From: Agromyces sp. LHK192
Lineage (GTDB): Bacteria > Actinomycetota > Actinomycetes > Actinomycetales > Microbacteriaceae
Length of the DNA stretch: 64,000 bases
Assembly: GCF_004006235.1 (NCBI RefSeq)
Contig: NZ_CP034753.1
Location: 3,162,001-3,226,000 of the forward strand
Direction: 5' to 3'
The notes beneath the pieces are model-generated. The model was given only the letters and a program-made list of their open reading frames with translations. It did not search any database and was not told where the DNA came from. Below, piece after piece: positions 19,885-35,751 of this stretch. The position numbers and the translations under genes were made by a program. Position 1 is the first letter of the stretch; every line of letters begins with the position of its first letter.

Positions 19885-20388
19885 TCAGAGCAGTTTCAGC
19901 ATCCTCGTGTTGCCGAGGGTGTTCTGCTTGACGCGGGCCAGGTCGAGGAACTCCGCGACACCCTCGTCGTGCGAGCGCACGAGTTCGGCGTACACGACCG
20001 GGTCGACGGTCTCTGCACCCATGTCCTCGAACCCGTGGCGGCCGAAGAAGTCGACCTCGAACGTGAGGCAGAACAGCCGGCTGAGCCCGAGCTCTCGCGC
20101 CTGCGTCTCGAGCGCGTCGAGCAGCGCGTGGCCGACGCCGTGGCCGAGCCATCCGTCGGACACGGCGAGCGTGCGCACCTCGCCGAGGTCCTCCCACATG
20201 ACGTGCAGCGCGCCGCAGCCGATGAGCGATCCGTCGGATGCCTCGGCGACGTGGAACTCCTGCAGCGCGCCGTACAGGTCGACGCGCTCCTTGCCGAGCA
20301 GGATTCGTCGCTGGACCAGCGGCTCCACGAGGTCGACGATCTGCACCACGTCGCTCGTGCGCGCCCGGCGCACCTGGAATCCGGTCAT
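19885..20388 (-). CDS. argA: Amino-acid N-acetyltransferase (short ArgA type)
   Basis: 167 residues, a single GNAT domain with acetyl-CoA loop GWLGHGVGHAL (~79-89) and the characteristic FEVDFFGRHGFEDM segment. It matches the short N-acetylglutamate synthase of Actinobacteria (like mycobacterial Rv2747), which acetylates L-glutamate in the first step of arginine synthesis. No other arg gene is adjacent, so a relaxed amine specificity cannot be excluded. It lies just downstream of the D-amino-acid locus on the same strand. Confidence 0.8.
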   Translation of the reverse strand: MTGFQVRRARTSDVVQIVDLVEPLVQRRILLGKERVDLYGALQEFHVAEASDGSLIGCGALHVMWEDLGEVRTLAVSDGWLGHGVGHALLDALETQARELGLSRLFCLTFEVDFFGRHGFEDMGAETVDPVVYAELVRSHDEGVAEFLDLARVKQNTLGNTRMLKLL

Positions 20389-20416: not shown

Positions 20417-21553
20417 TCACCGTCCGAGCAGTTCCCGCATGAGCCCGACCAGCAGCGCGGTGCGCGCGGGGATGTCCGCGACCATCACGTGCTCGGTGTC
20501 GGCGTGCGCGCCGCCGCCGACGGCTCCCAGTCCGTCGAGGGTCGGCACGCCGATGCCCGCCGTGAAGTTCCCGTCGGAGGCGCCGCCGACGACGATCGCC
20601 TCGGGCAACTCGAGCCCGAGGTCGTCGGCGACGGCCTGCGCGCGCCGCCACAGCGCCTCGGCCGCGCTGACCTCGAGCGGCGGCCGGTTGATGCCGCCGT
20701 GCACGGCGATGCGGGCGCCGGTGACCGGGACGAGCGAGCGGAACGCCGCATCGACCCGCTCCTGCTCGGAGGCGGTGAGCGCGCGCACGTCGACGACGAA
20801 CGACGCACTCGCGGGCACCGTGTTCGGCGTCGTGCCGCCGTGGGCGACGGTCGGCGTGACCGAGGTCCCCTCCGAGGCATCCGCGAATCCGACGACCACG
20901 CCGACCTGGTGCGCGAGTTCGACCGTCGCGTTCACGCCCTTCTCGGGTTCGAGGCCGGCGTGCGCGGCCCGGCCGGTGATGTCGACGCGGTAGTGCGAGA
21001 CGCCCTTGCGGCCGATCTTCAGCGCACCGCCGTCGCCGCTGGCCTCGAGCACGAGCGCGGCGACGCATCCCTCCGCCTCCTGCTCGATCAACGCACGCGA
21101 CGAGTGCGAGCCGAGCTCCTCGTCGCCGGTCACCAGGAGCGTGACGGCCGCGTCGGACAGGTGCCCGAGGTGGGCCGCCGCGTGCACGGCCATGACGAGC
21201 CCGGTGAGCATGTCGAAGCAGCCCGGGCCGCGGATCACGCCGTCCTGGATCGAGAACGGATGCGTCTCCAGCGACCCGATCGGCCACACCGTGTCGTGGT
21301 GCGCGAGCAGGAGCACGCGCGGGGCATCCGGTTCGGGTGATCCGAGGTGCCAGCGCAGGTGGGTGCTCCCGTCGACGACGATGCGCTCGGGGGCGAAGCC
21401 GAGGCGTCGTTCGCCGACCTCGGCGACCACGTCGGCCGAGCGGGCGACCGCGTCGTGGTCGGCCGACGGTGATTCGACGCGCACGACCGCTTCGAGGTCG
21501 GCGAGCAGGTCGGGAAGGACCGACTCGGCCCAGGCCAGGAGTTGATGCGTCAT
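20417..21553 (-). CDS. M20-family metallohydrolase (carboxypeptidase G2/deacylase-like)
   Basis: 378 residues with the M20 zinc ligands in order: His86-Asp in LLLAHHDTVW, Asp114 in GPGCFDM, Glu145-Glu146 in TGDEELGS, and a C-terminal His in GGGAHADTEH. A lid domain lies at ~185-285. It resembles CPG2-type enzymes, which remove N-acyl groups from L-glutamate or other L-amino acids. ATGA-coupled to the D-acyl-deacylase upstream. With the nearby acyltransferase and racemase it is the obvious candidate for the N-acyl-L-amino acid hydrolase that finishes a D-to-L conversion. Confidence 0.88.
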   Translation of the reverse strand: MTHQLLAWAESVLPDLLADLEAVVRVESPSADHDAVARSADVVAEVGERRLGFAPERIVVDGSTHLRWHLGSPEPDAPRVLLLAHHDTVWPIGSLETHPFSIQDGVIRGPGCFDMLTGLVMAVHAAAHLGHLSDAAVTLLVTGDEELGSHSSRALIEQEAEGCVAALVLEASGDGGALKIGRKGVSHYRVDITGRAAHAGLEPEKGVNATVELAHQVGVVVGFADASEGTSVTPTVAHGGTTPNTVPASASFVVDVRALTASEQERVDAAFRSLVPVTGARIAVHGGINRPPLEVSAAEALWRRAQAVADDLGLELPEAIVVGGASDGNFTAGIGVPTLDGLGAVGGGAHADTEHVMVADIPARTALLVGLMRELLGR

Positions 21554-23055
21554 CGCGGTTCGCCTCGCAGTCCACGTCCGGGGAACGACCCTTCGACGAT
21601 ATCCCCGTCGCGCACGACGAAGACCCCGTTGACGAGCAGGTGCTCGACGCCCTGCGAGGGTCGGGTCGAGTCCAGGTAGGTCGCGCGGTCGGTGATCCGG
21701 GCCGGATCGATGACCACGAGGTCGGCGTCGGCGCCCGGTGACAGCCGGCCCTTGCGGGTCGCGCCCGGCGCGATGCCGTCGAGGATGCGCGCCGGCAGGT
21801 GGCTGCAGCGGCGGAACGCCTCCATCCAGGTCCACAGCCCGTGCTCGCGAACCATCATCCGCAGCGACCGCGCGAACGTGCCGGCGGTGCGGGGGTGGGT
21901 CTGTCCGCCCGGCGGCAGCGGCCACTGGGCGGTGTCGGTCGAACCGTCTGGCCACGTGACGTGCATCGCGTCGGAGGCGACGATGCTGTCGGGGAAGGCG
22001 AGCGACTGCCGGAGCAGGGCGGCGTCGCGTTCGTCGCGCTCGTCGAGGAACTCGACGATGACGAGCGCTCCCGGCTGGGTCTCGCGCAGGTGCCGCAGCC
22101 GGGCCTCGTCGGCGATGCGCTCCTGCGTGTCGACGACGACCAGGTTCTGCGGCCGCAGGTCCCACGCCGGCAGCGCCTCGGGCGCGAGGAACGCCGCCCC
22201 GATCCCCGTCGAGCCCGCGCCGTACGGGTACGCCTCGACGGTGATGCCGGCGCCGCCGGCCCGCGCCGCCTCGATGGTGCCGAGCGTGCGGTCGACGTGG
22301 CGGCGCGACGTGCTGTTGACGTGGCAGTGGTGGGCGGTGCCGCCGAACTCCATGGCCGAGCGCGCGACCTCGAGGGTCCCGTCGATGGGCGTGGTCGGGT
22401 CGGCCTCGACGATCTCGCGGACGTGCGTGAACGTCGGGGCACCGGCGGATGCCGCGAGCCTCGCGACCGCACGGAACTCCTCAGGGTCGGTGCGCGGCGC
22501 GTACCCCATGAGCACGCCGATGCCGAGCGCCCCCTGCGCGAGTTCCTCCTCGAGGAGTCCGATCCAGCGGCTGAGCTGCGCGGGCGACGAGTCGCCGAGC
22601 CACGCGCGGTCGTTCAGGATGTCGAGGTCGCCGAACGGGTCGGCATCGCTCGTGCGTCCCGACAGCACGGCGGCGCGGGCCATCGTCCACGAGGCCGAGA
22701 AGCCGTAGTTGAGCGGTCGGCCCTCCTCCGCGGCGCGCGCGTACGCGCGGTCGACGGGCATCAGGCCCATCTCGAGGTCGAGGGCCGTGGTGACGCCGTC
22801 CATCGCCTGGAGCCGCTGGCCCGCGATCGAGTGCACGTGGCTGTGCAGGTCGACGAAGCCCGGGCCGACGACCTTGCCGGTCACGTCGACGACGGTGACG
22901 CCGGAGGATGCCTCGGGCACTGCGCCCACGGCATCCGATGACGCCCTCGGCCGGATCTCCGCGACGGAACCGTCGCGGATGAACACGTCGGCGATCCCGT
23001 CGAACCCGGAGGCCGGGTCGACGACCCGGCCCCCGGTCAGCAGCACATCGGTCAT
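21550..23055 (-). CDS. N-acyl-D-amino-acid deacylase (amidohydrolase)
   Basis: 501 residues of the amidohydrolase superfamily. Metal motif DLHSHVHS (~67-74), TIM barrel to ~450, and the D-aminoacylase signatures ASDAMHVTWPDG and HPRTAGTFARSLRMMVRE; the small beta-sandwich is split between both ends (GRVVDPASGFDGIADVFIRD; RKGRLSPGADADLVVIDPA). Expected reaction: hydrolysis of N-acyl-D-amino acids to D-amino acids. ATGA overlaps on both sides place it in one translationally coupled unit with the serine hydrolase and the M20 enzyme. Confidence 0.9.
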   Translation of the reverse strand: MTDVLLTGGRVVDPASGFDGIADVFIRDGSVAEIRPRASSDAVGAVPEASSGVTVVDVTGKVVGPGFVDLHSHVHSIAGQRLQAMDGVTTALDLEMGLMPVDRAYARAAEEGRPLNYGFSASWTMARAAVLSGRTSDADPFGDLDILNDRAWLGDSSPAQLSRWIGLLEEELAQGALGIGVLMGYAPRTDPEEFRAVARLAASAGAPTFTHVREIVEADPTTPIDGTLEVARSAMEFGGTAHHCHVNSTSRRHVDRTLGTIEAARAGGAGITVEAYPYGAGSTGIGAAFLAPEALPAWDLRPQNLVVVDTQERIADEARLRHLRETQPGALVIVEFLDERDERDAALLRQSLAFPDSIVASDAMHVTWPDGSTDTAQWPLPPGGQTHPRTAGTFARSLRMMVREHGLWTWMEAFRRCSHLPARILDGIAPGATRKGRLSPGADADLVVIDPARITDRATYLDSTRPSQGVEHLLVNGVFVVRDGDIVEGSFPGRGLRGEPR

Positions 23056-24515
23056 GCGTCCAGTCTCGGGGTCGCACGGGCACCGAGGTGCACGTACCTG
23101 CGGCCGCCGTCGAGTTCGTAGAACGTGACCGCCATCCATGTCTCGGTGCCGGCCGCGCGGGTGACCCAGAGGTTCTCGGCGACCGGGTGCAGCGGGTAGT
23201 CCGTGCCCGGGTCCTCCTCGAGTTCGGCGAGCAGCCCCAGCGGCGTCATCCGGAGCACCGGCGGGGCGTCGCCCTCGCCCGCGGAGACCTCGATGCGCAC
23301 CGACGCGCGGCCGTAGACGCCGACGTGCGGCGCGATGTCGCCCTCGAAGCCCTCGACCGGTTCGAGCTGGGCGGCCATCTCGACGCCGGCGAGCTCGGCG
23401 AAGATCTCGCGGTACAGGTCCATGTGGAGGTCGCGCGTGTGGCCGCCGTTCGTCAGCAGCGCGACGGCGAAGCCCTGCTCGGGCAGCACCCGCAGGAACG
23501 CGGCCTGGCCGATCGTGTTGCCGTCGTGCCCGAGCAGTCGGTGCCCGTTCCAATCGAACCGGATCCAGCCGACGCCCCACGAGTCGCCCAGGGTGTACGG
23601 GTCGGGCAGTTCGGCCTGCTTCGACGCCATCTCCGCGACGGATGCCTCGGAGAGCACGCGCGTGCCGTCGGCTGCGAGCCCGCCGGCCAGGTGCATCCGC
23701 GCGAACGACAGCAGGTCGGAGACGGGGCAGGTGATGAGGCCGGCGGGGCCGAGCGGGCGCGGCAGGCTCCAGACGGGCACGACCTGCGGCTCGCCGTCGG
23801 GCCCGTCGACGTGCCCGACCGCGGCGGGGTGCAGCAGCGCCTCCTCGGGCAGGGTGCCCGTGGCCCGCAGGCCCAGCGGCGTGTAGAGGCGTTCGCGCAT
23901 CGCGGCATCCCACGTCTTGCCGGTGAGCACCTCGATCACGCGGCCGGCCAGCGAGAAGCCGGCGTTGCAGTACGACCAGGTCTCGCCGATGGGGTGGTTC
24001 TGCGTCTGCTCCTTGAGGAGCGCGACGTACTTCTCGAGGTTGTCGTCGCCGCGGCCGGTGTCGGTGAACACGTCGCCGTCGATGCCGCTCGTGTGCGCGA
24101 GCAGGTGCCGCAGCGTCACGGCACGCGCGACGTCCATGTCGGCGAGCTCGAAGTCGGGCAGCACCTCGATGACCGGGGTGTCGAGCGTGACGAGCCCCTC
24201 GTCGACGAGCTGCATGACGACGGTCGCCGTCCACACCTTGGAGATCGAGCCGATCTGGAACACGGCCTCGGGCGACACCGGGATCTTCGCCGGCACGTGC
24301 AGGTAGCCGTGCACGGCGGTGACGAGTTCGTCGGGCTCGCCGTCGGCGCCCAGGCGCAGGATGCCCAGCTGCGCGCCGGGCACGCCGTGGCGTGCGGCGA
24401 GCTCGGCGAGGCGCCGCTCCCAGTGCGCCGCGTCGATCGGCGGGGTCGCGTCGGTGGGCTGGGTCGCGGGCGCCTCGTCGGCGGCCGTGGTGCTGACGGT
24501 GACGGTGTCGGTCAT
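23052..24515 (-). CDS. Serine hydrolase of the class C beta-lactamase/D-aminopeptidase family
   Basis: 487 residues, no signal peptide, so cytosolic. The serine beta-lactamase-like domain (~35-385) has the SxxK pair Ser90-Lys93 (GSISK), Tyr182-Asn184 (SYCN) and HDGNTIGQ in place of the KTG box. A C-terminal beta domain of ~100 residues is like that of D-aminopeptidases (DmpA/DAP type). The neighbours (importer, D-acyl deacylase, M20) favour peptide or D-amide hydrolysis over antibiotic resistance. Paralogue of the gene at 30265. Confidence 0.88.
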   Translation of the reverse strand: MTDTVTVSTTAADEAPATQPTDATPPIDAAHWERRLAELAARHGVPGAQLGILRLGADGEPDELVTAVHGYLHVPAKIPVSPEAVFQIGSISKVWTATVVMQLVDEGLVTLDTPVIEVLPDFELADMDVARAVTLRHLLAHTSGIDGDVFTDTGRGDDNLEKYVALLKEQTQNHPIGETWSYCNAGFSLAGRVIEVLTGKTWDAAMRERLYTPLGLRATGTLPEEALLHPAAVGHVDGPDGEPQVVPVWSLPRPLGPAGLITCPVSDLLSFARMHLAGGLAADGTRVLSEASVAEMASKQAELPDPYTLGDSWGVGWIRFDWNGHRLLGHDGNTIGQAAFLRVLPEQGFAVALLTNGGHTRDLHMDLYREIFAELAGVEMAAQLEPVEGFEGDIAPHVGVYGRASVRIEVSAGEGDAPPVLRMTPLGLLAELEEDPGTDYPLHPVAENLWVTRAAGTETWMAVTFYELDGGRRYVHLGARATPRLDA

Positions 24516-25261
24516 GCTGGGCTCCTGATCGGATCGGGGACCGCGGCGAGCAGCTCGCGGGTGTACGGGTGGTCGGGGGACTCGAGCACGGACCCGGCCG
24601 GGCCGTGCTCGACGATGCGGCCGTCGCGCATGACGGCGACCGACGAGGCGACGTACCTGACGACGGCCAGGTTGTGCGAGATGAAGAGCATCGACAGGCC
24701 GAGCTCGCGCTGCAGCTCGCGCACGAGGTTCAGCACCGCGCCCTGCACGGAGACGTCGAGCGCCGAGGTGATCTCGTCGGCCACGATCACGTCGGGCCGC
24801 GCCGCGAGGGCGCGCGCGATCGCGACCCGCTGGCGCTGGCCGCCCGACAGTTCGCCGGGCCGGGCGTCGCGACGCGACGGGTCGAGGTGCACCAGTTCGA
24901 GGAGCCGTTCGATCTCGGCGCGCCGCTCGGAGCGCGGCACGTCCCGCGGGAGCGACTCGGCGATCGTCGCGCCGATGCTCATGCGGGGGTCGAGCGACGA
25001 CTGCGGGTCCTGGAACACCATCTGCACCGGGCGACGACCGTGGCGCGGCAGGTCCACGCCGTCGAGCAGGATGCGTCCGCCCGCCGTCGGGGCGAGGCCG
25101 ACCACCGCGCGGGCGATCGTGGACTTGCCGGAGCCCGACTCCCCCACCAGGCCCACGATCTCGCCGTGCGGCACGGTGAGGCTGACGCCGTCGACCGCGA
25201 GGTGCGCGTGGGCACCATGGCCGTAGCGCACGACGAGGTCCTCGATGCGCAGCTCGCTCAT
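24512..25261 (-). CDS. Peptide ABC transporter ATP-binding protein (DppF type)
   Basis: 249 residues with Walker A GESGSGKST, Q-loop VFQDPQSSLDPRM, signature LSGGQRQRVAIARAL and Walker B VIVADEITSALD. The C-terminus (ILESPDHPYTRELL-like) is that of oligopeptide ATPases. It pairs with the ATPase half of the DppC-DppD fusion upstream. ATGA overlaps at both ends. Confidence 0.93.
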   Translation of the reverse strand: MSELRIEDLVVRYGHGAHAHLAVDGVSLTVPHGEIVGLVGESGSGKSTIARAVVGLAPTAGGRILLDGVDLPRHGRRPVQMVFQDPQSSLDPRMSIGATIAESLPRDVPRSERRAEIERLLELVHLDPSRRDARPGELSGGQRQRVAIARALAARPDVIVADEITSALDVSVQGAVLNLVRELQRELGLSMLFISHNLAVVRYVASSVAVMRDGRIVEHGPAGSVLESPDHPYTRELLAAVPDPIRSPA

Positions 25262-27357
25262 CGGCGCACCATCCTCTCGTCGGATGCCTCGGCCCCGTCG
25301 GATGCCTCGGTCGGGTCGGATGCCTCGGTCGGGTCGGATGCGACGGCCGGGTCGGATGCGACGGCCGGGTCGGCTGCCTCGGCCCCGTCGGATGCGACGG
25401 CGGCGATGTCGGCGGCGGCGACCGGGTTCCAGCACGCGACGCGCTGGCCCGGCGCCGTCTCGCGCAGGGTCGGGTCCTCCTCGAGGCAGCGGGCGGTCGC
25501 GAACGGGCAGCGGGCGGCGAACGCGCACCCGGTCGGCACCCGCGAGGGGTCGACCGGGCGCCCCGGGATCGTCGCGAGCGGAAGCCCGCGATCGGTGTCC
25601 ATGTCGGGCACGGCGGCGATGAGCGCCCGGGTGTACGGATGCGCCGCGTCCTCGGCGATCCGGTCGGACGCGATCTCCTCGACGACGCGTCCGGCGTACA
25701 TGACCAGGATCCGGTCGCACACCTCGCGCACGACGGCGATGTCGTGGCTGATCATCAGGATCGCCGCCCCGTTCTCGTCGCGGACCCGGCCGAGCAGCTC
25801 GAGCACCTGCTGCTGCACCGTCACGTCGAGCGCGGTCGTCGGCTCGTCGGCGATCACGAGCTTCGGCTGCGCCATCACGCCCATCGCGATCATGGCCCGC
25901 TGGCGCATGCCGCCCGAGAACTCGTGGGGGTACTGCTTCGCACGGCGTGCGGGGTCGGGGATGCTCACCGCGCCGAGCCGGTCGACGGCGTGCGCTGCGG
26001 CCTCCCGTCGCGACATCCCGCCGTGGAATCGCGACACCTCGGCGAGCTGGTCGCCCATCCGGATCGTCGGGTTGAACGAGGTCATCGGGTCCTGGAACAC
26101 CATCGCGAGCGACGTCCCGAGCAGGCGACGACGCTCGGCGGCAGCCGACGGCGACGCGGGCGTCCGCCGGAGGTCGACGCCGAGGAAGTCGAGCCGCTCC
26201 GCCTCGACCCGCAGGGGCGCCTCGACGAGCTGCGCGATCGCGAGTGCCGTCAGCGACTTGCCCGAGCCGGACTCGCCGACGATGCCGACCGACTCGCGTT
26301 CCCCGATCCGCAGGTCGATACCCCGCACCGGGGCGACCTCGCCCGCGGGTCCGGGGACGACGGCCCGGAGGCCCCGCACGTCGAGCACGGCGTCGTCGGC
26401 GCGCGCGCCCTCCCACTCGGTTCCGGCCGAGCGGGTGGGCTCCGGCGACGACGCCTGCGACTGGGCCTTCGCGTGGGCCGTCGCCCCGGCCGGCGTCGCC
26501 CGGCGTCGCCTGACGCCGAGCCCGAGCAGCGTCCCCGGCAGCGCGGAGACCGAGTACACCTTGGCGAGCGCCTCGCCGGTCAGGTTGAACGCGAGGCCGG
26601 CGATCACGACGGCGATCCCGGGGGCGAGGGCGGCCAGCGGGTTGAGGTAGATACGGCCGAGGCCCTCCATCATGAGCCGCCCCCAGTCGTACGCCGGCGG
26701 CTGCACCCCGAGGCCGAGGAACGACAGGCCCGCGAAGGCCAGCAGCATGCCGCCGGCGGCGATCGTCGCGTTCACGATCAACGGCTCGGCGACGTTGGGC
26801 AGCACGTGGCGCACCAGGATCCGGACCCGGCCCTGGCCCGCGATCCGCGCGGCCGCGACGAAGTCGCGCTGCGAGACCCCGGCGATCAGCGTCTGGCAGA
26901 ACCGTGCGAAGCTCGGGGCGCCCGCGATGCCGATCGCGAACATCGCCGCGAACTCGCCGACGCCGAGCACGGTCGCGAGGAACAGCGCGAGCAGGATCCC
27001 CGGGAACGCGACGGCGATGTCGACGGCGGCCACGACCGGGCGTCCGAGCCGCGGACCGAGCAGGATCGGGGCGGAACCGAGCACGAGGCCGATGACGAGG
27101 GCGATCGCGGTCGCGCCGAGCGCGAGCAGCACCGTGAGGCGGGTCGCGACCAACGTGCGCAGCAGCAGGTCGCGACCGAGGGCATCGGTGCCGATCGGAT
27201 GCTCCGCCGAGGGCCCGGCGTTGATGTTCGAGGTGTCGGTGACGTCGGCCGCGGCACCCCAGAGGATCGGGGCGACGATCGCGACCGCCAGCACGAGGCC
27301 CAGCAGGACCGCCGCGGCGAGACCGACCGCCGTGCGAAGCACCTGCATCGCGCGCAT
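25258..27357 (-). CDS. Fused peptide ABC transporter permease and ATPase (DppC-DppD)
   Basis: 699 residues, about twice the usual size because two subunits are fused. Residues 1-~285 are a DppC permease: five or six membrane helices and the EAA-like loop AARIAGQGRVRILVRHVLPN. Residues ~325-625 are a DppD ATPase with GESGSGKSLTA, VFQDPMTSFNP, FSGGMRQRAMIAMGV and VIADEPTTALD, ending in the oligopeptide-type Cys motif (GCAFAARCPFATARC). The last ~45 residues are a repetitive Ala-Ser-Asp-Pro tail encoded by 18-bp repeats. Overlaps DppB by one base (TGATG). The unbroken frame across the joint argues for a real fusion. Confidence 0.9.
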   Translation of the reverse strand: MRAMQVLRTAVGLAAAVLLGLVLAVAIVAPILWGAAADVTDTSNINAGPSAEHPIGTDALGRDLLLRTLVATRLTVLLALGATAIALVIGLVLGSAPILLGPRLGRPVVAAVDIAVAFPGILLALFLATVLGVGEFAAMFAIGIAGAPSFARFCQTLIAGVSQRDFVAAARIAGQGRVRILVRHVLPNVAEPLIVNATIAAGGMLLAFAGLSFLGLGVQPPAYDWGRLMMEGLGRIYLNPLAALAPGIAVVIAGLAFNLTGEALAKVYSVSALPGTLLGLGVRRRRATPAGATAHAKAQSQASSPEPTRSAGTEWEGARADDAVLDVRGLRAVVPGPAGEVAPVRGIDLRIGERESVGIVGESGSGKSLTALAIAQLVEAPLRVEAERLDFLGVDLRRTPASPSAAAERRRLLGTSLAMVFQDPMTSFNPTIRMGDQLAEVSRFHGGMSRREAAAHAVDRLGAVSIPDPARRAKQYPHEFSGGMRQRAMIAMGVMAQPKLVIADEPTTALDVTVQQQVLELLGRVRDENGAAILMISHDIAVVREVCDRILVMYAGRVVEEIASDRIAEDAAHPYTRALIAAVPDMDTDRGLPLATIPGRPVDPSRVPTGCAFAARCPFATARCLEEDPTLRETAPGQRVACWNPVAAADIAAVASDGAEAADPAVASDPAVASDPTEASDPTEASDGAEASDERMVRR
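25279..25404. repeat. Seven 18-bp tandem repeats inside the DppC-DppD gene
   Basis: Units begin at 25279 and recur every 18 bases (core GTCGGATGCCTCGG, some with GCGACGG). They encode six-residue variants of ASDPTE/ASDPAV/ASDGAE at the protein C-terminus. Each unit contains the abundant heptamer GGATGCC or a one-base variant. Confidence 0.92.
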
Positions 27358-28421
27358 CAGCGGGCTCCCTTCCCGTCGAGGGTCGAGGTCCGCGGGTCGA
27401 GCACCGCGAGCGCGACGTCGACCGCCGTGTTGGCCAGCAGCACGCCGATCCCGTACACGAGCACGATGCCCTGCACGAGCTGGTAGTCCTTCGAGAGGAT
27501 CGACCCGGTCACCGTGGACCCGATGCCCGGCCAGGCGAACACGTTCTCGACGAGCACGGTGCTCGCCACCATCGCCCCGAGGAGCAGCCCGCCGAGCGTC
27601 AGCGACGCGGTCACCGCGTTGGGCAGGGCGTGCCGCCACACCACCCGGGCCGGCGGCAGCCGCTTGGCCCGGGCGGTGCGCACGTGGTCGGTGTCGAGCA
27701 CGCCGAGGAGTTCGACCCGCACGATCCGGGCGAGCACCATCGCGGGGCCGACGGCGAGCGCGATGACCGGCAGCACGAAACTGTCGACCCCGTCCATGCC
27801 GGCCACCGGCAGCCACTGCAGGCTGACGCCGAAGACCCAGACGAGCGCGACGCCGAGGAGGAAGTCGGGAATGGTCGCGAGCACGATGCTCGATCCCGCG
27901 AAGCCGGCCTCGAGGAACCGGCGGCGCCCCCGACGCGTCGCGACCGCCACGACGGCGCCGAGCGGGATCGAGACGACCACCGCGACGACGAACCCGGCGA
28001 CACCGAGCGCCAGCGTCGCGGGAAGCCGGTCGGCGATGATGTCGGCGACCGGCAGGCGGTACTGGATCGACATCCCGAGGTCGCCCGTGAAGATCCCGGC
28101 GATGAAGTCGAGGTACTGCTGCCAGAGCGGGGCGTCGAAGCCGAGGTTGGCGCGGGTCTGCTCGATGAGCTCCGGCGTGGCCTTGGGGCCGAGCGCGCCG
28201 CGGATGGGGTCGCCGGGCACGAGGTGGATCATGGCGAACGCGGCCGTGACGAGCACCCAGAGCGACAGCAGCAGTCGGCCGCCGCGCCGCACGCCGAACC
28301 GCACCCATCGGTTCTGCGACATCCGGCGGAATGTGCCGGGCGCGCCGGAACCGCCCGGCGCGCCTGCGGCCGCGCCGGGCGGCGCGGTCGTGGTGTCGGC
28401 GGCCGTCTGGCTGATCGTCAC
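27357..28421 (-). CDS. Peptide ABC transporter permease (DppB type)
   Basis: 354 residues from a GTG start, with an unusual Thr/Ala/Pro/Gly-rich 35-residue N-terminal extension. It has the DppB N-terminal signature (HLVPGDPIRGALG, QYLDFIAGIFTGDLG), six membrane helices and the inner-membrane permease loop TARAKRLPPARVVWRHALPN. It forms the channel with the permease half of the fusion encoded downstream. Confidence 0.93.
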   Translation of the reverse strand: MTISQTAADTTTAPPGAAAGAPGGSGAPGTFRRMSQNRWVRFGVRRGGRLLLSLWVLVTAAFAMIHLVPGDPIRGALGPKATPELIEQTRANLGFDAPLWQQYLDFIAGIFTGDLGMSIQYRLPVADIIADRLPATLALGVAGFVVAVVVSIPLGAVVAVATRRGRRRFLEAGFAGSSIVLATIPDFLLGVALVWVFGVSLQWLPVAGMDGVDSFVLPVIALAVGPAMVLARIVRVELLGVLDTDHVRTARAKRLPPARVVWRHALPNAVTASLTLGGLLLGAMVASTVLVENVFAWPGIGSTVTGSILSKDYQLVQGIVLVYGIGVLLANTAVDVALAVLDPRTSTLDGKGAR

Positions 28422-28464
28422 GGTCGGTCCGTCGCTTCCGTCGTTCGGTGGGGGTGGAACAGGT

Positions 28465-28500
28465 CCCGGGCGCCTCGGTCACAGGTCCGAGGCGCCCGGG
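28465..28500 (-). terminator. Stem-loop between binding-protein and permease genes
   Basis: Perfect 14-bp inverted repeat with 8-base loop, 5 bases after the binding-protein stop. It could be a partial terminator or an mRNA-stabilising hairpin that keeps binding-protein mRNA more abundant than permease mRNA, as is common in ABC importer operons. Confidence 0.65.
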
Positions 28501-28505
28501 AGGCA

Positions 28506-30104
28506 TCACTGCTGGAGGCGGATGCTCGTCGGCTCGATCGAGTCGGAGCCGGTGAACTCGGCGCCGTTCCCGAACACCGTGAGCACGTTGCTCGCGAAGG
28601 GCAGGACGTCGACGTTGCCCACGAGCGCCTGCTCGGCCTCGAACCAGGTGTCGCAGCTGTCGGTGCCGACGAGGCCCATCGCCGCCGTCGCGGTCGCCTC
28701 GTAGTCGGCGTTCGCGATCGACGCGAAGTTCACGCCGCCGTCGGCCGGGGTCGGGCCCGTGAGGAAGCCGAGCAGCTGATCGGGGGTGTTCACGTTGAGG
28801 GGCTCCCAGATGAGGTCCCAGTCGCCGCCGCCGAACATGACGCCCGACACCTCGTCGGTGGGCATGGTCGACGCGTCGACCTGGACGCCCAGCTCGGTCC
28901 ATGCCGCGACCGCCAGCTCGGCCGCGGCGGCACCGCCGGTGCCGAGCGCGGAGTCGTGGATGAACGTGACGGCCAGCGGGGCGCCGTCCTTCGACCAGCC
29001 GTCGCCGGACTTGGCCCAGCCTGCGGCCTCGAGCGTGGCGGCCGCCTGGTCCGCCCCCGACTCGGGGAGTGCCGAGGTGAAGTCGCCGCCGACGCACGCG
29101 GCGGGTGCCGCGACCGCGAGCTGCGTGGCACGGACGCCGGTGCCCGACGTGATCACGTTCGCGAGTTCGTCGAGGTCGAGCGCCTGGGCGAGCGCCGTGC
29201 GCACGGCGAGATCGGCCGTGACGCGGCCTGCGGCCTGGTTGAACCAGGTCTCGCCCGTGATGGCCTGGCTGTCGAACGCCTCCTTGCCGGCCAGTCGCTC
29301 GGCGTCCGGCCCGATGACCAGGGCCGCGTTGACGTCGCCCGACAGCAGGAGGTTCGCCGCCGTGGTCTCGTTGGGCACGACGCGGAGTTCGACCGACGCG
29401 GGCATGCCGGGCTCGTCGGTCGTGGCACCGTCGGGACCCCACGCGTAGCCGTCGCGGACCTCGTAACTGTAGTGGTCGTTCGAGGCGACCTCGGCGACCG
29501 TGTACGGCCCGGTGCCGTCGGTGCCCTCGACGAGGGTCGAGCGGTCGGCCAGGCCGGCGTCGCAGACCATCGCGACCTGCGCGAGCCCCTCGACCACGAA
29601 CGGCGCGGGCGCGGCGAGCGTCAGGGTGAGCGTGCCGGCCTCGTCGTCGGCCTCGGCCGTCACGCCCGCCGGGACGAAGGCGCCCAGCAGCGGGCTCGCG
29701 TTCTCGGGGTCGGCGATGAAGTCGATGTTGCCCTTCGCGGTCGACGCGGTGAACGGGGTGCCGTCGGCGCAGGTGACGTCGTCGCGGAGGGTGAACGACA
29801 CGGTCGTGCCGTCGACCGCCCACTCCGACGCGAGGCCCGTCGAGAGCACGCCGTCGGCGTCGAGGTTGACGAGCGAGTCGTACGCGAACTTCGAGGCGGC
29901 GAACGCGGCGCTCGTCGCGCCGAGGTGCGGGTCGAGCGATCCGACGTCGGTCGCGATGGCGTAGACGAACGAGCCGCCGGCCGCGGAGTCGGAGTCGGCG
30001 TTCGACCCGCCGCCCGAGCAGCCGGCGAGCGCGAGCACGCCGACGAGCGGGAGGCCGATCAGTGCGGCGCCGCGGCGGCCGCGTGGGAGGTCGCTGAGGT
30101 TCAT
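28506..30104 (-). CDS. Peptide ABC transporter substrate-binding lipoprotein
   Basis: 532 residues. Signal peptide with lipobox LAGC (Cys29), then Gly/Ser linker and a SBP_bac_5 domain (extracellular solute-binding family 5: DVGSLDPHLGATSAAF, VSFTLRDDVTCADGTPF). It captures di- or oligopeptides outside the cell for the DppB/DppCD/DppF importer. The upstream gap holds a repeat and an 11-base G run (C run on the mRNA). Confidence 0.92.
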   Translation of the reverse strand: MNLSDLPRGRRGAALIGLPLVGVLALAGCSGGGSNADSDSAAGGSFVYAIATDVGSLDPHLGATSAAFAASKFAYDSLVNLDADGVLSTGLASEWAVDGTTVSFTLRDDVTCADGTPFTASTAKGNIDFIADPENASPLLGAFVPAGVTAEADDEAGTLTLTLAAPAPFVVEGLAQVAMVCDAGLADRSTLVEGTDGTGPYTVAEVASNDHYSYEVRDGYAWGPDGATTDEPGMPASVELRVVPNETTAANLLLSGDVNAALVIGPDAERLAGKEAFDSQAITGETWFNQAAGRVTADLAVRTALAQALDLDELANVITSGTGVRATQLAVAAPAACVGGDFTSALPESGADQAAATLEAAGWAKSGDGWSKDGAPLAVTFIHDSALGTGGAAAAELAVAAWTELGVQVDASTMPTDEVSGVMFGGGDWDLIWEPLNVNTPDQLLGFLTGPTPADGGVNFASIANADYEATATAAMGLVGTDSCDTWFEAEQALVGNVDVLPFASNVLTVFGNGAEFTGSDSIEPTSIRLQQ

Positions 30105-30160
30105 GCGGATCCTTCGGGGTCGGTGCGCGGTGCGGGCCGCGCGATGCAGGATGGGACGGT

Positions 30161-30228
30161 ACGGTGCGGGGCAGAGCGGTACGGTGCGGGGCAGAGCGGT
30201 GCGGTGCGGTGCGGTGCGGGGGGGGGGG
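30161..30228. repeat. Repeat tract with 11-base G run in the leader of the binding-protein gene
   Basis: Two identical 20-base copies at 30161-30180 and 30181-30200 (core GGTGCGGGGCAGAGCGGT), then GCGGT units, then 11 consecutive G at 30218-30228. It lies between a serine hydrolase stop and the binding-protein start, in the transcribed leader on the minus strand. Such tracts are prone to slippage. Confidence 0.9.
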
Positions 30229-30264
30229 TTCGTGGACGGTGCTGTGGGGTGCTCGTGCTCGTGC

Positions 30265-31692
30265 TCAGGCGGTCGCGCGGGGCATCGCCCGACCGGTGTG
30301 CAGGAACGCCGCGCGCCCCTGCCCGTCGTCGCCGAGGAACACGTAGATCCAGTGGGTGCCCATCTTCTGCTCGGTCGTGATGAGCGACCCGTCGCCGTGC
30401 GGGACGACCCGTGCGGGCGGCGCCGCCGACACGAGCGAGGCGAACTCGCCCTTGCCCACGTCCTGGGCCCAGAGCCGTCCCTCCTCGTCGACGGTGACGA
30501 CCACGTCCATGACGGACGCCGAGTAGGTGCCGACGAATCGTGCCGCCGCGACCTCGTCGAGCACCGCCTCCGCGTCGGCCGGCGTCTGCGGCGCGCGCAG
30601 CACGTCGCCGCCGGTGAGCCGCGCGAAGAGCGATTCGAAGAGCTCGCGCGAGATCGACATGACGTCGCCGCCGTTCGTGAGCAGGGCGACCGCGACGCCG
30701 GCCTCGGGCAGCACCCGCAGGAACGCGTTCTGGCCGATCGTGCTGCCGTCGTGCGAGATCATCGGGCCGGCGGGGGTCGGGTCGAGCTCCCAGCCGAGCC
30801 CCCACGACTCGCCCATGAGGCCGATGTCGGGGACGCCGACCTGGACCTCCTGCATGGCGGCGACGGATGCCTCGGAGAGCACGCGCGTGCCGTCGGCGGC
30901 GAGGCCGCCCGACGCGTGCATGCGCGCGAACGCGAGCAGGTCGGCGACGCGCATGGCGAGCGTCGATCCGGCGGGGCCGTTGGAGCGGACCAGCGACCAG
31001 ATCGGCGCCGGGACGAGGACGCCCTCGGGGCCGGGGAGGTGGCCCTGCGCGACGCGGTGCATGATCGCCTCGTACGGACCGGGGGCTGCATGCGCGAGGC
31101 CGAGCGGCCGGAGGAGCCGCTCGGTGAGCACGTCGTCGTAGGCGCCGTCGCGCAGCACCTCGACGAGCCGGCCGAGCACGACGTATCCGGCGTTGTTGTA
31201 CGAGAACTGCGTGCCTGGCTCGAACAGCTGCGGGGTGTCCGCGAGGGTCGCGACGTACTTCTCGACGCAGTCGTCGCCACGGCCGGTGTCGGTGAACAGG
31301 TCGCCCTCGAAGCCCGCCTGGTGCGACAGGAGGTGCCGGGCGGTGATGACGGCAGCGGCATCCTCGTCGGCGATGCGGAACTCGGGCAGGTAGGTGCGGA
31401 TGGGCACGTCGAGGTCGAGCAGGCCGTCGTCGACGAGCTGCATGACGAGGGTCGCCGTCCAGACCTTGGTGATGGAGCCGATCTGGAAGAGCGCGTCGTC
31501 GGTGGCCTCGACGCCGGTGCCGAGGTGCAGCACGCCCGTGGCGTGGCCGACGACCTCGCCGTCGACCAGGACGCCGGCGGCAGCGGCGGGGACGCCGTGC
31601 GATTCGATGAGGCGCGGGAGCTCGGCCTCCAGCCACTCGCGGATGCCTTCGGCCGTCGCGAGCGGGGCGGTGGGTGCGGTGGGGTTCGCCAT
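30265..31692 (-). CDS. Serine hydrolase of the class C beta-lactamase/D-aminopeptidase family (paralogue)
   Basis: 475 residues from the ATG at 31692. Same architecture as the hydrolase at 23052: SxxK Ser73-Lys76 (GSITK), Tyr165-Asn167 (SYNN), SHDGSTIGQ as third motif and a ~100-residue C-terminal beta domain. No signal peptide. The two copies bracket the transporter genes, suggesting duplication within the locus and different substrate stereochemistry or length. First gene of the minus-strand run, 116 bases from the divergent acyltransferase gene. Confidence 0.88.
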   Translation of the reverse strand: MANPTAPTAPLATAEGIREWLEAELPRLIESHGVPAAAAGVLVDGEVVGHATGVLHLGTGVEATDDALFQIGSITKVWTATLVMQLVDDGLLDLDVPIRTYLPEFRIADEDAAAVITARHLLSHQAGFEGDLFTDTGRGDDCVEKYVATLADTPQLFEPGTQFSYNNAGYVVLGRLVEVLRDGAYDDVLTERLLRPLGLAHAAPGPYEAIMHRVAQGHLPGPEGVLVPAPIWSLVRSNGPAGSTLAMRVADLLAFARMHASGGLAADGTRVLSEASVAAMQEVQVGVPDIGLMGESWGLGWELDPTPAGPMISHDGSTIGQNAFLRVLPEAGVAVALLTNGGDVMSISRELFESLFARLTGGDVLRAPQTPADAEAVLDEVAAARFVGTYSASVMDVVVTVDEEGRLWAQDVGKGEFASLVSAAPPARVVPHGDGSLITTEQKMGTHWIYVFLGDDGQGRAAFLHTGRAMPRATA

Positions 31693-31808
31693 GGCACGAC
31701 GGTACGAGTCGCGCGACACCGCTCGTTCGTCGGAACGGACGACGTTCGGTGGTCGTGTTCGTGCGATCGCACAGCGCGGCGGATGGGCGGGCCGTGGATG
31801 CTGTCCCT

Positions 31809-32822
31809 ATGCACACGACCGCGCGCCCGACGGCGAACGACGCCGCCACCCTGGGCGACCTCGTGACCCCCGGCCACCCGCCGACCGGCGAGAGAACCGG
31901 CAATAGAACCGGCGAGGCAACCGGAGCGGCCGGCGACGCCATCCGAACCGGGGCCCACGGCGCCGCGTCGCTCGCCGGGCCGGCGCGACGCATGGCGGAC
32001 GAGGCGCTCGCCGCCGCCGGCATCCGGATGCTCGACGCGCACGATCGCACCGCCGCCGAGCAGGTCGAGTCCGTGCTCTCGGACATCTGGGGACGGGACG
32101 ACGGCATGATCGACCCGGCCCTGCTCGTCGCCATGGCGCACGCGGGCAACCTGGTCGCCCTCGTGTCCGCCGGCGACGCGCCGATCGGCGCTGCCGTCGG
32201 CTTCTGCGGCCCGCCCGGGGCGCCGTTCCACTCCCACATCGTGGGACTCCTGCCCGAGGCCGTCGGGGCCGGCCGCGGCCGCGCGGTCAAGCTCGCGCAA
32301 CGCGCCTGGTGCCTCGAACGCGGCATCGACGAGATGACGTGGACCTTCGATCCGCTCGTCGCGCGCAACGCGTACTTCAACCTCCGCAGGCTCGGGGCGA
32401 CGGCGCTCGAATACCTGCCGGACTTCTACGGGGTGATGACCGATGCGATCAACGCCGGACAGCACTCGGATCGCGTGCTCATCCGGTGGGACCTCGCGCA
32501 GGAACCGCCCAGTGCGGAGGCCACCCGCGTCGAACTCCCCCTCGACGCCGTCACGGCGGCCGTCGCCGACCTCGACGGCGAGCCGACGCCGTACGTCGCA
32601 CCGGCCGTCACCGCTGTCGTGACGACCGTCGCCGTCCCGGAGGACATCGAGCGCCTGCGCCGCGCCGATCCCGACGCCGCACGTCGCTGGCGCACCGAGA
32701 CCCGTGCGGCGTTCCTCGACCTGCTGGGGTCGGGCTGGGCGATCACCGGGTTCACCCGGTCATCCCGGTACGTGCTGCGACGAGCGAACCCCGCCGCCAT
32801 GGAAGGATCCACCGCCGAATGA
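31809..32822 (+). CDS. GNAT acyltransferase (COG3375 type) of the D-amino acid conversion set
   Basis: 337 residues. The first ~70 are Ala/Gly/Thr-rich and probably disordered. The GNAT domain (~70-220) has acyl-CoA motif VGAGRGRAVKLAQRAW and a characteristic IDEMTWTFDPLVARNAYFN stretch. It matches the predicted acetyltransferases that recur beside N-acylamino acid racemase genes, where a homologue succinylates D-amino acids. ATGA-coupled to the racemase. The 116-base divergent upstream region contains TCGTC-N6-GACGA (31727-31742), a possible operator. Confidence 0.85.
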   Translation: MHTTARPTANDAATLGDLVTPGHPPTGERTGNRTGEATGAAGDAIRTGAHGAASLAGPARRMADEALAAAGIRMLDAHDRTAAEQVESVLSDIWGRDDGMIDPALLVAMAHAGNLVALVSAGDAPIGAAVGFCGPPGAPFHSHIVGLLPEAVGAGRGRAVKLAQRAWCLERGIDEMTWTFDPLVARNAYFNLRRLGATALEYLPDFYGVMTDAINAGQHSDRVLIRWDLAQEPPSAEATRVELPLDAVTAAVADLDGEPTPYVAPAVTAVVTTVAVPEDIERLRRADPDAARRWRTETRAAFLDLLGSGWAITGFTRSSRYVLRRANPAAMEGSTAE

Positions 32823-33943
32823 AGCTCCTCAGCCTCCGCCTCCACCACCTCGCGATGCCGCTCGTCGCGCCCTTCACGACCTCGTTCGGCACCCAGACCG
32901 CGAAGCGGTGCTTCCTCGTCGAGGCGACGCTCGAGACCGCCGACGGCGCGGTCGTGACCGGGTGGGGCGAGAACGTCGCGCTGGACCGCCCCGTGTACTC
33001 GCCCGAGTACCTCGACGGCGCGGCGGACGTCGTCGAACGATGGCTCGCTCCCCTGCTCTTCGCCGCCGGCGACCTCACCGCCGAGACCGTCGGCCACCTC
33101 CTGCACCGCATCGTCGGCAACCCGATGGCGAAGGCCTCGGTCGAGATGGCCGTGCTCGACGCCCAGTTGCGGGCCGAGGGCCGCTCGTTCGCCTCGTACC
33201 TCGGCGCCGTCGCCGAGACGGTGCCCTCGGGCGTGTCCGTCGGCATCCAGGACTCGGTCGCCGCGACCGTCGGCGTCGTCGGCGGCTACGTCGACCAGGG
33301 GTACGCGCGCATCAAGCTCAAGATCCAGCCCGGATCGGATGTCGCGCACGTCGCGGCCGTCCGACGCGAGTTCGGCGACGACCTCCCGTTCCAGGTCGAT
33401 GCGAACGCGGCGTACACGCTGGTGGATGCCGCGCACCTGCGCCGGCTCGACGACTACGGGCTGCTGCTGATCGAGCAGCCGCTCGGCGAGGCCGACCTGC
33501 GCCAGCACGCCCAGCTCGCGAAGCTCATGCACACGCCGATCTGCCTCGACGAGTCGATCGTGTCCGCCGAGGCCGCCGCCGACGCGATCGCGCTCGGATC
33601 GGCGTCGGTGATCAACATCAAGCCGGGCCGGGTGGGCGGCTACCTCGAAGCCCGCCGCATCCACGACATCGCGCGGGCGAACGGGGTCGCGGTGTGGTGC
33701 GGCGGGATGCTCGAGACCGGGGTCGGCCGCGCGGCGAACGCGGCCCTCGCCGCTCTGCCCGGCTTCACGCTGCCGGGCGACATCTCCGGGTCCGACCGTT
33801 TCTACGCCGAGGACATCACGACCGAGCCGATCCGGATGCACGACGGCGTCGTCGACGTGCCGACCGGCCCGGGCTTCGGCGTCGAGGTCGACCCGGAGCG
33901 CCTCGAGCGGTTCCGCGTCGGACTGGTCGAGCTCGCGCCCTGA
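32819..33943 (+). CDS. N-acylamino-acid racemase (NSAR/OSBS enolase superfamily)
   Basis: 374 residues of the MenC/NSAR branch of the enolase superfamily. Catalytic Lys166 and Lys168 in IKLKIQ, metal ligands Asp194 (QVDAN), Glu219 (LIEQP) and Asp244 (CLDES), and Lys268 (INIKPGRVGG). The same fold serves o-succinylbenzoate synthase (menaquinone). No men gene is nearby, whereas a coupled acyltransferase and an M20 deacylase are, so N-acylamino acid racemisation is the better call. It interconverts N-acyl-D- and N-acyl-L-amino acids. Confidence 0.9.
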   Translation: MKLLSLRLHHLAMPLVAPFTTSFGTQTAKRCFLVEATLETADGAVVTGWGENVALDRPVYSPEYLDGAADVVERWLAPLLFAAGDLTAETVGHLLHRIVGNPMAKASVEMAVLDAQLRAEGRSFASYLGAVAETVPSGVSVGIQDSVAATVGVVGGYVDQGYARIKLKIQPGSDVAHVAAVRREFGDDLPFQVDANAAYTLVDAAHLRRLDDYGLLLIEQPLGEADLRQHAQLAKLMHTPICLDESIVSAEAAADAIALGSASVINIKPGRVGGYLEARRIHDIARANGVAVWCGGMLETGVGRAANAALAALPGFTLPGDISGSDRFYAEDITTEPIRMHDGVVDVPTGPGFGVEVDPERLERFRVGLVELAP

Positions 33944-33996
33944 GCTCGCCGGCGGCGGGTACCGCCGCCCAGGAGTCGCAGTCGGATGCCTGCCCG

Positions 33997-35751
33997 TCAG
34001 GGGCGTCGCGCCCGGAGCTCCGGGAAGATCCGCAGCTGCAGCTGCGCCGCGAACCGTGCCTCCGGGTCGGCGAGGTCCATCTCCGCAACCCCGGCGAGGC
34101 GCTTCAGCCGGTACCGGAACGTGTTCGGGTGGATGTGGAGGGCGTCGGCCGCGGCCGAGACGTCGCCGAGGTGGTCCAACCACGCCCGGAGCGTCTCGAC
34201 GAACGCAGTGTCGTGCTCGACGTCGTGCTCGTGCAGTCGCGCGACCGGCCCGGTCATCTGCTCGCCGCCGGCCCGGACCCGATCGCGCAGTTCAAGAACG
34301 AGCGCCTCCACGTGGACCTCGCTGAACCGCGCGACCGCGGAGCGGGTGGCGGCGGAACGGGCATCCGCACCGCCGACGTGCTCGAGCCTGACCCGCAGGG
34401 CGCGCTCGGCGCTCTCGCGCGATCGCATCACGCCCTGCGGACCGCTGGAGACCCGGCCGATGCCGATCTGCACGGGCGTCCGCGTGCCGATCCTGGCCAG
34501 GAAGTCGTTCGCGAGCCGTGCGGCCTGCGCCTCGCCCTCGTCACCGGGTCGGACCGGAAGCAGGCCGTAGATCGTGCCGCCGAGCAGGGCCGCCGACGCC
34601 TTCGGATGCACGGCCGCGAGGTGCATCGCGACCGCATCCGCCATCCGTTGCGCCTGCGCCTGACGGTCGCCCTCACGGTCGATGCCGTCGCCCTCCCCCG
34701 TGCCGACGGCGGCGGCGAGCACGACGACCGGCGAGGCATCCAGTCCGAGGCGCTCGAGCGCGAACGCGGCGCCCTCCGCACCCTCGAGCGCCGTGCTCAG
34801 CAGGTCGGCGCGCAGGCGCCGCCCGACGTCGGCTCCGGCGCGCAGCCGCAGCAGGTGCAGGGCGACGACCTTCGCCGCGTCGCGCAGGGCCGCCGTGCGT
34901 TCCGCGTTGAGCTCCTCGGGGACCGCGGCCCAGATGGACCCCAGGATCTCGCCGCCGGCTCGCACCGCGATCGCGCACCTGGTCTTCAGCTCGGTGCCGT
35001 CGAAGGTCAGGTTCGCGTAGACCGGGTCGGGGCTCGAGTACAGCTGCTTGAAGACCCCGGCCTCGGTGAGCAACCGCGCGTACCGCTCGGGAACCTGCCG
35101 TTCGAGCACGGTCTCGATCCGCGACGGATCGGCCTCGTCCTGTCGGCTCGAGAAGGCGAGCACCCGGGAGTTGCGGTCCTCGATCGTGATCGGGGCGTCG
35201 AGGAGGGCGGCGATCGCGTTGGCGAGCGTGAACAGGTCGCCGCTCGGCAGTCCGCCGATCGCCTCATGCACGCGATCGTCGTCCGGCTCCGTGAGCAGGG
35301 CCGCGACCATCGCGCTGAGCTGCGCCCACGAGGCGCCGCGCGTCAGGCTGAGCAGCGCGACGCCGCGATCCCGCGCGAGCGCCGACGTCTCGTCGTCGAG
35401 CGCGACCGGCTCGCGCAGCACGACGGCGGATGCCCCGACGTCGTCGATCCGTTCGAGCACCGCACGCAGGTCGGCACCGCCCGACAGGCCGACGCCGAGC
35501 ACGACGGCGCCGTCGGGGACCGCCTGGTCGTCGAACGGGTCGAAGACGACGACCCCGCCGATCCGCCGGTGCGGGTCGGGTATCGGTCCGAGCGGCGCGA
35601 GGAAGGTGGAACCCAGGTCGTCGAGGAGTCGCTCGACGGTCGGCAGCGCGCGCGCCGCCCCCGAGCGCGCGGGCTCCGCCCGGACCGCCGACCCGCGTGC
35701 GCCACTCGGCGCTGCGCTGCGCGAGGTACCACCGGGGAAGGAGCCGAACAT
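33997..35751 (-). CDS. PucR-family transcriptional regulator
   Basis: 584 residues from the ATG at 35751 (GGTGGA 4-9 bases upstream); a GTG at 35808 would add 19 residues. Residues ~40-190 are a PucR N-terminal sensor (TVERLLDDLG), ~200-330 a GAF-like region, ~340-470 a GGDEF-like CdaR segment, and the C-terminus is the PucR HTH (ADALHIHPNTFRYRLKRL). PucR proteins activate purine, amino acid or polyamine catabolism. It faces the racemase gene tail to tail and probably controls the D-amino acid locus. Confidence 0.88.
   Translation of the reverse strand: MFGSFPGGTSRSAAPSGARGSAVRAEPARSGAARALPTVERLLDDLGSTFLAPLGPIPDPHRRIGGVVVFDPFDDQAVPDGAVVLGVGLSGGADLRAVLERIDDVGASAVVLREPVALDDETSALARDRGVALLSLTRGASWAQLSAMVAALLTEPDDDRVHEAIGGLPSGDLFTLANAIAALLDAPITIEDRNSRVLAFSSRQDEADPSRIETVLERQVPERYARLLTEAGVFKQLYSSPDPVYANLTFDGTELKTRCAIAVRAGGEILGSIWAAVPEELNAERTAALRDAAKVVALHLLRLRAGADVGRRLRADLLSTALEGAEGAAFALERLGLDASPVVVLAAAVGTGEGDGIDREGDRQAQAQRMADAVAMHLAAVHPKASAALLGGTIYGLLPVRPGDEGEAQAARLANDFLARIGTRTPVQIGIGRVSSGPQGVMRSRESAERALRVRLEHVGGADARSAATRSAVARFSEVHVEALVLELRDRVRAGGEQMTGPVARLHEHDVEHDTAFVETLRAWLDHLGDVSAAADALHIHPNTFRYRLKRLAGVAEMDLADPEARFAAQLQLRIFPELRARRP

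Follow-up and report, generated by a model that had tools for sequence, protein, structure and literature searches.

In 2006 Sakai and colleagues reportedly described an irreversible pathway that converts D- to L-amino acids in Geobacillus kaustophilus, and its gene set is said to comprise a GNAT acyltransferase, an N-succinylamino acid racemase (NSAR) and an M20 deacylase. The dppABCDE–ykfABC cluster of Bacillus subtilis is likewise said to join a peptide ABC importer to enzymes acting on D-residue peptides and to a member of the enolase superfamily. Later work of the Glasner laboratory reportedly writes NSAR/OSBS, the second part standing for o-succinylbenzoate synthase, without assigning these enzymes a biological role. 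In the portions available of two reports, an Amycolatopsis relative is presented as an OSBS with promiscuous racemase activity (PMC4215206, PMC4271523), and the available portion of the first describes members of the NSAR/OSBS family as capable of both activities (PMC4215206). A third, likewise partly available, describes an in vitro cascade in which a variant of the Amycolatopsis racemase and an L-selective aminoacylase, taken from different organisms, turn supplied N-acetyl-DL-amino acids into the L-forms (PMC4823265). Here we analyse a block of genes in Agromyces sp. LHK192 (Microbacteriaceae) that brings such components together. It occupies positions 20417–35751 of a 64,000-nucleotide stretch (hereafter the window; contig NZ_CP034753.1, positions 3,162,001 to 3,226,000) of a complete 4.09-Mb genome. 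We consider it likely that the block forms a catabolic unit complete in itself, which takes up peptides containing D-residues, hydrolyses them and converts D- irreversibly to L-amino acids. Somewhat more cautiously, we think it probable that Actinomycetota carry an undescribed mobile operon for such peptides (a Dpp importer, S12, S9 or M19 hydrolases, acyltransferase, NSAR, M20 and PucR) and that the Amycolatopsis racemase, which papers present as an OSBS whose promiscuous racemase activity has no physiological relevance, naturally serves the use of D-peptides and not menaquinone synthesis. For any specific source of the peptides our confidence is lower than for the D-peptide reading itself.

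Eight genes of the block are transcribed from the minus strand in the order S12b, substrate-binding protein (SBP), DppB, DppC–DppD fusion, DppF, S12a, Dac (a D-aminoacylase-like amidohydrolase) and M20. Four of the seven junctions in this run are 4-bp overlaps, which chain DppCD, DppF, S12a, Dac and M20 together. The acyltransferase (here ACT) and NSAR diverge from this run on the plus strand and, as the initial annotation had noted, are coupled by an ATGA overlap at 32819–32822, and PucR faces NSAR from the opposite strand. Each gene which that annotation had named lies where it had been placed within 20417–35751. The block shares with the Geobacillus gene set a GNAT-fold acyltransferase, an NSAR and an M20 hydrolase, for which we propose the same chemistry, and differs in that the actinobacterial locus adds a Dpp importer, S12, S9 or M19 hydrolases, an amidohydrolase and PucR. 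Compared with the artificial cascade, as far as the accessible part of that report describes it (PMC4823265), the locus has the same pair of activities and in addition an acyltransferase and an importer.

The joining of these genes recurs in other genomes. We took as a named set the best-scoring 80 of at least 588 NSAR relatives, which is not a random sample. Their loci contain ACT in 70 cases, M20 in 44, PucR in 43, DppCD and S12 in 38 each, S9 and SBP in 24 each, M19 in 10 and Dac in 7. Within the family of the window's genome, NSAR relatives (E 1e-40) are present in 51 of 199 genomes, and the 53 matches outside the genome itself are accompanied (at least 100 bits) by ACT in 34 cases, M20 in 14, DppCD in 10 and S12 in two. 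By the same scan, 40 menC neighbourhoods from family genomes gave one DppF match and no other listed gene, and in 20 arbitrary regions from three genomes no listed gene was matched. Since the gene set recurs around NSAR and hardly around the control loci, its association is more than chance. This recurrence strongly supports the initial proposal that importer and acyltransferase–racemase–M20 module form one unit, the accompanying chemistry being what the sequences suggest. The co-occurrence in relatives that the proposal called for was found, though only a minority of the family to which the window belongs shows it. All counts were taken from tblastn because the gene caller misses genes in lower-GC genomes (its output was empty or almost empty for L062, L069, L071, L072 and L090). 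The DppCD query starts 34 residues ahead of the presumed start, and for S9 the query comprises residues 1–640 of the L041 fusion described below. Both named and family loci are frequently truncated, by a contig end or by the 10-kb flank.

In two family genomes (L039 and L041), M20–ACT–NSAR–Dpp–S12/S9 make up a single operon, which is also found in Nocardioides, Streptomyces, Actinomadura, Arthrobacter, Microbacterium and Planotetraspora, so that its distribution is wider than the Microbacteriaceae. A same-strand run SBP–DppB–DppCD–DppF–S9–S12–M20–ACT–NSAR–PucR occurs in a fair number of genomes, for example in L112, L123, L124, L136, L141, L146 and L162. The full order of the window from PucR to M20, Dac included, is identical in L216, where the proteins match those of the window at 86% (NSAR), 81% (S12a), 80% (Dac), 73% (M20) and 62% (ACT) identity; the L216 genome also holds the Microbacterium marinilacus locus L149. 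In Nesterenkonia muleiensis (L092) the order from Dac to PucR is kept. On a quick NSAR tree (135 rows, long branches flagged) the Dpp context switches at least 24 times. The order and membership of the locus shuffle while its theme stays constant. Even among distant NSARs (38–45% identity; 11 loci, L080–L090), M20 and a divergent ACT–NSAR pair stand with Dpp genes in eight of the 11.

Within the conversion module, NSAR (32819–33943, plus strand) belongs to the NSAR/OSBS branch of the enolase superfamily and shares its family with the Amycolatopsis enzyme (1SJA, 4A6G, 7S8W), to which it is 60% identical. The KxK lysines K166 and K168 and the metal ligands D194, E219 and D244 are present in all 135 aligned rows, and the second catalytic lysine K268 and R271 each in 134. 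The window enzyme keeps the Arg of the KPGR motif (R271), as does 1SJA, where 7S8W has KPGQ; this second-shell Arg, replaced by Gln in the 7S8W variant, reportedly favours racemisation. The predicted structure of ACT (31809 or 31992 to 32822, plus strand, with homology beginning at about 31992) is a GNAT fold. By sequence it has no match in Pfam, NCBIfam or PDB, a further difference from the Geobacillus pathway, and among its relatives there are proteins with PF00583 and proteins named "predicted GNAT superfamily acetyltransferase". We propose that ACT is an acyl-CoA:D-amino acid N-acyltransferase, with succinyl-CoA as the probable donor. ACT and NSAR lie on a common strand in 104 of 104 loci that have both and within 300 bp of each other in 88, gaps being counted between match edges. 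The M20 metallo-hydrolase (20417–21553, minus strand; Pfam M20 and M20_dimer) has carboxypeptidase G2 (1cg2, 122 bits) as its best PDB match, and all 60 aligned rows, the window included, have H85, D87, D114, E145, E146, E170 and H350. We propose that it is an L-selective N-acyl-amino-acid deacylase. Across the enzymes of the block the catalytic residues are intact.

The importer is complete, with an SBP_bac_5 protein, two permease domains and two oligopeptide-type ATPase domains. The SBP (28506–30104, minus strand; PF00496, 148 bits) has a hydrophobic N-terminus followed by LAGC, which marks it as a lipoprotein. DppB (27357–28421, minus strand) matches PF00528 and PF19300, and the Opp2B family at 266 bits against a cut-off of 350. 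In the window a DppC–DppD fusion takes the place of two separate proteins, with BPD_transp_1, ABC_tran and oligo_HPY domains within a single open reading frame (25258–27357, minus strand). The DppF/OppF-type ATPase (24512–25261, minus strand) matches PF00005 and, at scores below the respective cut-offs, oligo_HPY and the OppF/DppF families. The ligands of such an importer would be short peptides.

Two S12 (beta-lactamase/penicillin-binding-protein-type) serine hydrolases accompany it, S12a (23052–24515, minus strand; PF00144, 206 bits) and S12b (30265–31692, minus strand; PF00144, 220 bits). The SxxK, YxN and HxG motifs are conserved in 37 aligned rows of S12a, a single row being gapped at S and K, and in 38 of 38 rows of S12b. 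Both lack an N-terminal hydrophobic stretch or signal peptide and hence appear cytoplasmic. Dac (21550–23055, minus strand) is an amidohydrolase of the PRK09061 subfamily (NF006560, 581 bits against a cut-off of 340) and matches D-aminoacylase 1m7j at 90 bits. H71, H73, H211, H242 and D362 (an HxH motif, two His and an Asp) are present in eight of eight rows. The bridging Cys of D-aminoacylase, which we take to be Cys96 in 1M7J, is missing, with Met aligned in the window and Ala in six of the eight rows; Glu95, beside the lost position, is invariant in all eight. An N-acyl-D-amino-acid deacylase, as first annotated, is present to this extent, and it is an accessory part of the locus, found in 7 of the 80 named loci, in two of the 199 family genomes (its own included) and in all five Amycolatopsis-genus loci discussed below.

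The hydrolase position varies among relatives between S12, an S9–S12 fusion and M19. In L039 (11394–14744) and L041 (5195–8548) an S9 prolyl-oligopeptidase domain and an S12 beta-lactamase-type domain are fused into a protein of about 1116 residues. M19-like genes stand ahead of M20–ACT–NSAR in some Streptomyces loci (L111, L113 and L122), and six of the 53 loci of the family contain an M19 dipeptidase gene matching at 100 bits or more. M19 enzymes and their renal dipeptidase relatives are known to accept C-terminal D-residues. The strongest argument for peptides with D-residues as the substrates is that peptidases unrelated to one another occupy this position while importer and D-to-L module stay the same.

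On this evidence we propose the following scheme. The lipoprotein SBP together with DppB, DppCD and DppF would import short peptides, from which the two cytoplasmic S12 hydrolases, aided by Dac, would free D- and L-amino acids; in relatives an S9 enzyme joined or fused to S12, or an M19 dipeptidase in place of S12, would serve the same step. Dac would more likely open acylated or peptide-bound D-residues ahead of ACT than undo the acylation. The GNAT-fold ACT would N-acylate, probably N-succinylate, the D-amino acid, and we infer that NSAR, using its two lysines for a 1,1-proton transfer, racemises the N-succinyl- or other N-acyl-amino acid. M20 would deacylate the L-enantiomer only, drawing the equilibrium to L, and PucR would regulate the block.

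The block is an insertion. It is flanked by genes for NAGS (N-acetylglutamate synthase; 19885–20388, minus strand) and ClpC (36030–38561, minus strand). Of 60 same-genus genomes, the window's own included, 56 have both genes on a single contig. In 54 of these 56 the two are separated by less than 2 kb; in G286 the gap measures 7.0 kb, and in the genome of the window 15.6 kb. The block thus arrived here, or has been retained, as a unit. No repeats longer than 8 bp were found at the edges of the 15.6-kb insertion. NAGS, directly downstream of M20, was considered as a member of the locus and rejected: it is the arginine-pathway enzyme (PRK07922, 251 bits against a cut-off of 180), present in 58 of the 60 genomes, and constitutes a housekeeping flank. 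In its own genus the block is rare and patchy. ACT (E 1e-30) is found in 25 of the 60 genomes, own included, and among 20 same-genus loci (20 of the 25 ACT matches listed outside the genome itself) Dpp and M20 accompany it in two, L250 and L251.

One alternative interpretation would make the enolase the MenC of menaquinone biosynthesis, with a promiscuous racemase activity and unrelated neighbours. TIGR01928 (o-succinylbenzoate synthase) is indeed the top NCBIfam match of the window protein (287 bits, over the cut-off), and its Amycolatopsis relative is handled as an OSBS in the available portions of PMC4215206 and PMC4271523. Against this, a canonical MenC (461 bits) is encoded elsewhere in the window's genome, as it is in 197 of 199 family genomes (E 1e-20; 196 over the cut-off), and the called genes of the block include ACT and M20 and no men gene. 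In 30 genomes of the named set that bear NSAR, MenC is over the cut-off in 21 and MenD in 20. Two have MenC with MenD only as pieces under the cut-off, and eight have neither over the cut-off, so that the o-succinylbenzoate route is probably absent there. A single genome, that of Planotetraspora kaengkrachanensis (G226, carrying L102), has MenD and no MenC over the cut-off; there, alone among the 30, NSAR could also act as OSBS, and unless the draft is incomplete this genome speaks against separating NSAR from menaquinone synthesis. Of 60 genomes searched in the genus of Amycolatopsis kentuckyensis, 48 have NSAR (E 1e-100) and all 60 have MenC over the cut-off. Five loci from these 48 genomes were examined (L128 and L270–L273), and all five carry Dac–M20–ACT–NSAR with S12, SBP and Dpp genes, three of them also PucR. 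The NSAR of L272 is identical to 1SJA at 324 of 354 positions (91.5%), which places a close relative of the model enzyme in the same kind of locus. The setting differs from the published description, as far as the portions available give it, in being one of D-to-L conversion with MenC elsewhere, and the genomic evidence on the 1SJA-type enzyme points away from an OSBS with a side activity as racemase. We reject a role of the window enolase as the OSBS of menaquinone synthesis; the MenC interpretation is largely refuted for the window, and we give it almost no credence.

Other interpretations accept the module and change its purpose. It could handle N-acylated amino acids, or detoxify free D-amino acids with N-acetylation as the end point, while the importer merely supplies mixed peptides as food. 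The GNAT fold does not distinguish succinyl from acetyl transfer, the window has a D-acylase-like amidohydrolase, and in L048 (5536–12034), L056 (8277–14337), L143 and L171 PucR–ACT–NSAR is accompanied not by Dpp but by a polar amino-acid ABC importer, which suggests uptake of free D-amino acids in those loci. What makes this unlikely is that 49 of the 56 loci with both M20 and ACT have them no more than 300 bp apart, which suggests that the acyl group is taken off again, and that a racemase would be useless in plain detoxification by acetylation. Defence against, or feeding on, D-residue peptide antibiotics of nonribosomal or lasso type is suggested by the S9 part of L041, which scores 124 bits with the lasso-peptide isopeptidase model and 166 bits with that of Dpp5, both far under cut-off, by the PBP cyclase Ulm16 among the PDB relatives of S12b, and by the carriers being soil actinobacteria, rich in such peptides. 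We find this quite unlikely, given that the hydrolases seem to be cytoplasmic and to act after an importer, which fits nutrition better than defence, and that the called genes of the block include no efflux or self-resistance gene. Scavenging of murein peptides, the peptidoglycan source put forward in the initial annotation, would follow the layout of dpp–ykf, with a Dpp-type importer, an epimerising enolase-superfamily enzyme and PBP-like hydrolases. It is decidedly improbable here. The enolase is of NSAR type, a dipeptide epimerase identity being rejected by its scores (1sja scores 448 bits and the L-Ala-D/L-Glu epimerase 1jpm 120; PRK15129 at 62 bits against a cut-off of 343), and among the called genes of the block there is no LD-carboxypeptidase, NlpC/P60, amino-sugar or dipeptide-epimerase gene, M20 and ACT being present instead.

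Several observations weigh against our preferred reading of the block as a D-peptide unit. Most NSAR loci of the family are without Dpp (DppCD in 10 of 53, M20 in 14 of 53), and 18 of the 20 same-genus ACT loci have no Dpp or M20 match; NSAR is present in 16 of these 18 and a saccharopine-dehydrogenase-like gene in 13. M20 is missing from the stretch covered in 36 of the 80 named loci; 23 of those genomes were searched, and an M20 relative (E 1e-40) occurs somewhere in 18 and in none of the remaining five. In Nesterenkonia the only M20 relative lies on another contig, beside a second ACT. The SBP is nearer to NikA-like proteins and to 6lu2, its best PDB match, than to murein-peptide binders. 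The S12 enzymes, initially likened to D-aminopeptidases, are at most putative D-specific peptidases, the nearest solved relative of S12b being IS11 (7spn, 202 bits) and the D-aminopeptidase 1ei5 remote (38 bits). With SBP and S12b placed in this way, the label "D-peptide" rests on context. Dac, finally, could undo the acylation if it accepted N-succinyl-D-amino acids.

PucR (33997–35751, minus strand) is a PucR/CdaR-type, AdeR-like regulator with HTH_30 and GGDEF_2 domains (AdeR, 136 bits against a cut-off of 700). We infer that it controls the block from the 116-bp divergent promoter between S12b and ACT (31693–31808). This region contains two imperfect palindromes, at 31726–31743 and 31758–31775, which also occur in L216 and which we regard as a weak candidate for the PucR operator. 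The pattern TTCGTNNGATCNNACGAA, derived from the window and L216, has four matches with up to two mismatches in 525 kb (27 chosen locus stretches) against one in 1.17 Mb (60 control stretches). Two of the four are in L216, a source of the pattern, and one is in the M20–ACT stretch of L128, outside such a promoter, which leaves as the only independent match that in the divergent promoter of L094, with one mismatch. At up to three mismatches there was no enrichment (11 against 22 matches, at similar density).

Some further features of the region and of its relatives are recorded here. The intergenic stretch between S12b and SBP (30105–30264) is unusually repetitive, with GGTACGGTGCGGGGCAGAGC-like units and a G run. 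In L080–L090 a SIS-domain gene often lies between M20 and the divergent ACT–NSAR pair; a MurQ identity for its product is unsupported, with no NCBIfam match at E 1e-5. These loci (for example L087, 7699–14717) also hold an M19 dipeptidase and a GATase-like protein, and L087 and L088 encode a D-amino-acid-dehydrogenase-like (DadA-like) FAD enzyme (176 bits against a cut-off of 383). A D-amino-acid transaminase in the distant loci was considered and rejected, the class IV aminotransferase of L081 fitting aminodeoxychorismate lyase better (272 against 65 bits). NSAR has a second context, beside a saccharopine-dehydrogenase-like or carboxynorspermidine-synthase-like enzyme, with or without ACT (L043, 9183–10469, and 20 further loci). 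It accounts for 21 of the 135 tree rows, and no M20 match was found in those stretches.

The D-to-L chemistry is already known from Geobacillus. Among the titles listed from the open-access literature, none describes a combined locus for import, peptide hydrolysis and D-to-L conversion, which does not prove its absence from print. Nor did we find there an account of how importer and peptidases are joined to the module, of how far this combination has spread, of the ACT family or of a connection to the Amycolatopsis racemase. The industrial and evolutionary model enzyme NAAAR/OSBS (N-acylamino acid racemase/OSBS; 1SJA) gains a concrete physiological setting, and a teaching case of promiscuity is challenged in that the supposed side activity may be the selected one. 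The locus also offers a matched set of acyltransferase, racemase, deacylase and peptidases for L-amino acid production. For soil actinobacteria themselves, it suggests a possible oxidase-free route by which D-amino acids are salvaged from peptides, through racemisation under acyl protection and the pull of an L-selective hydrolase.

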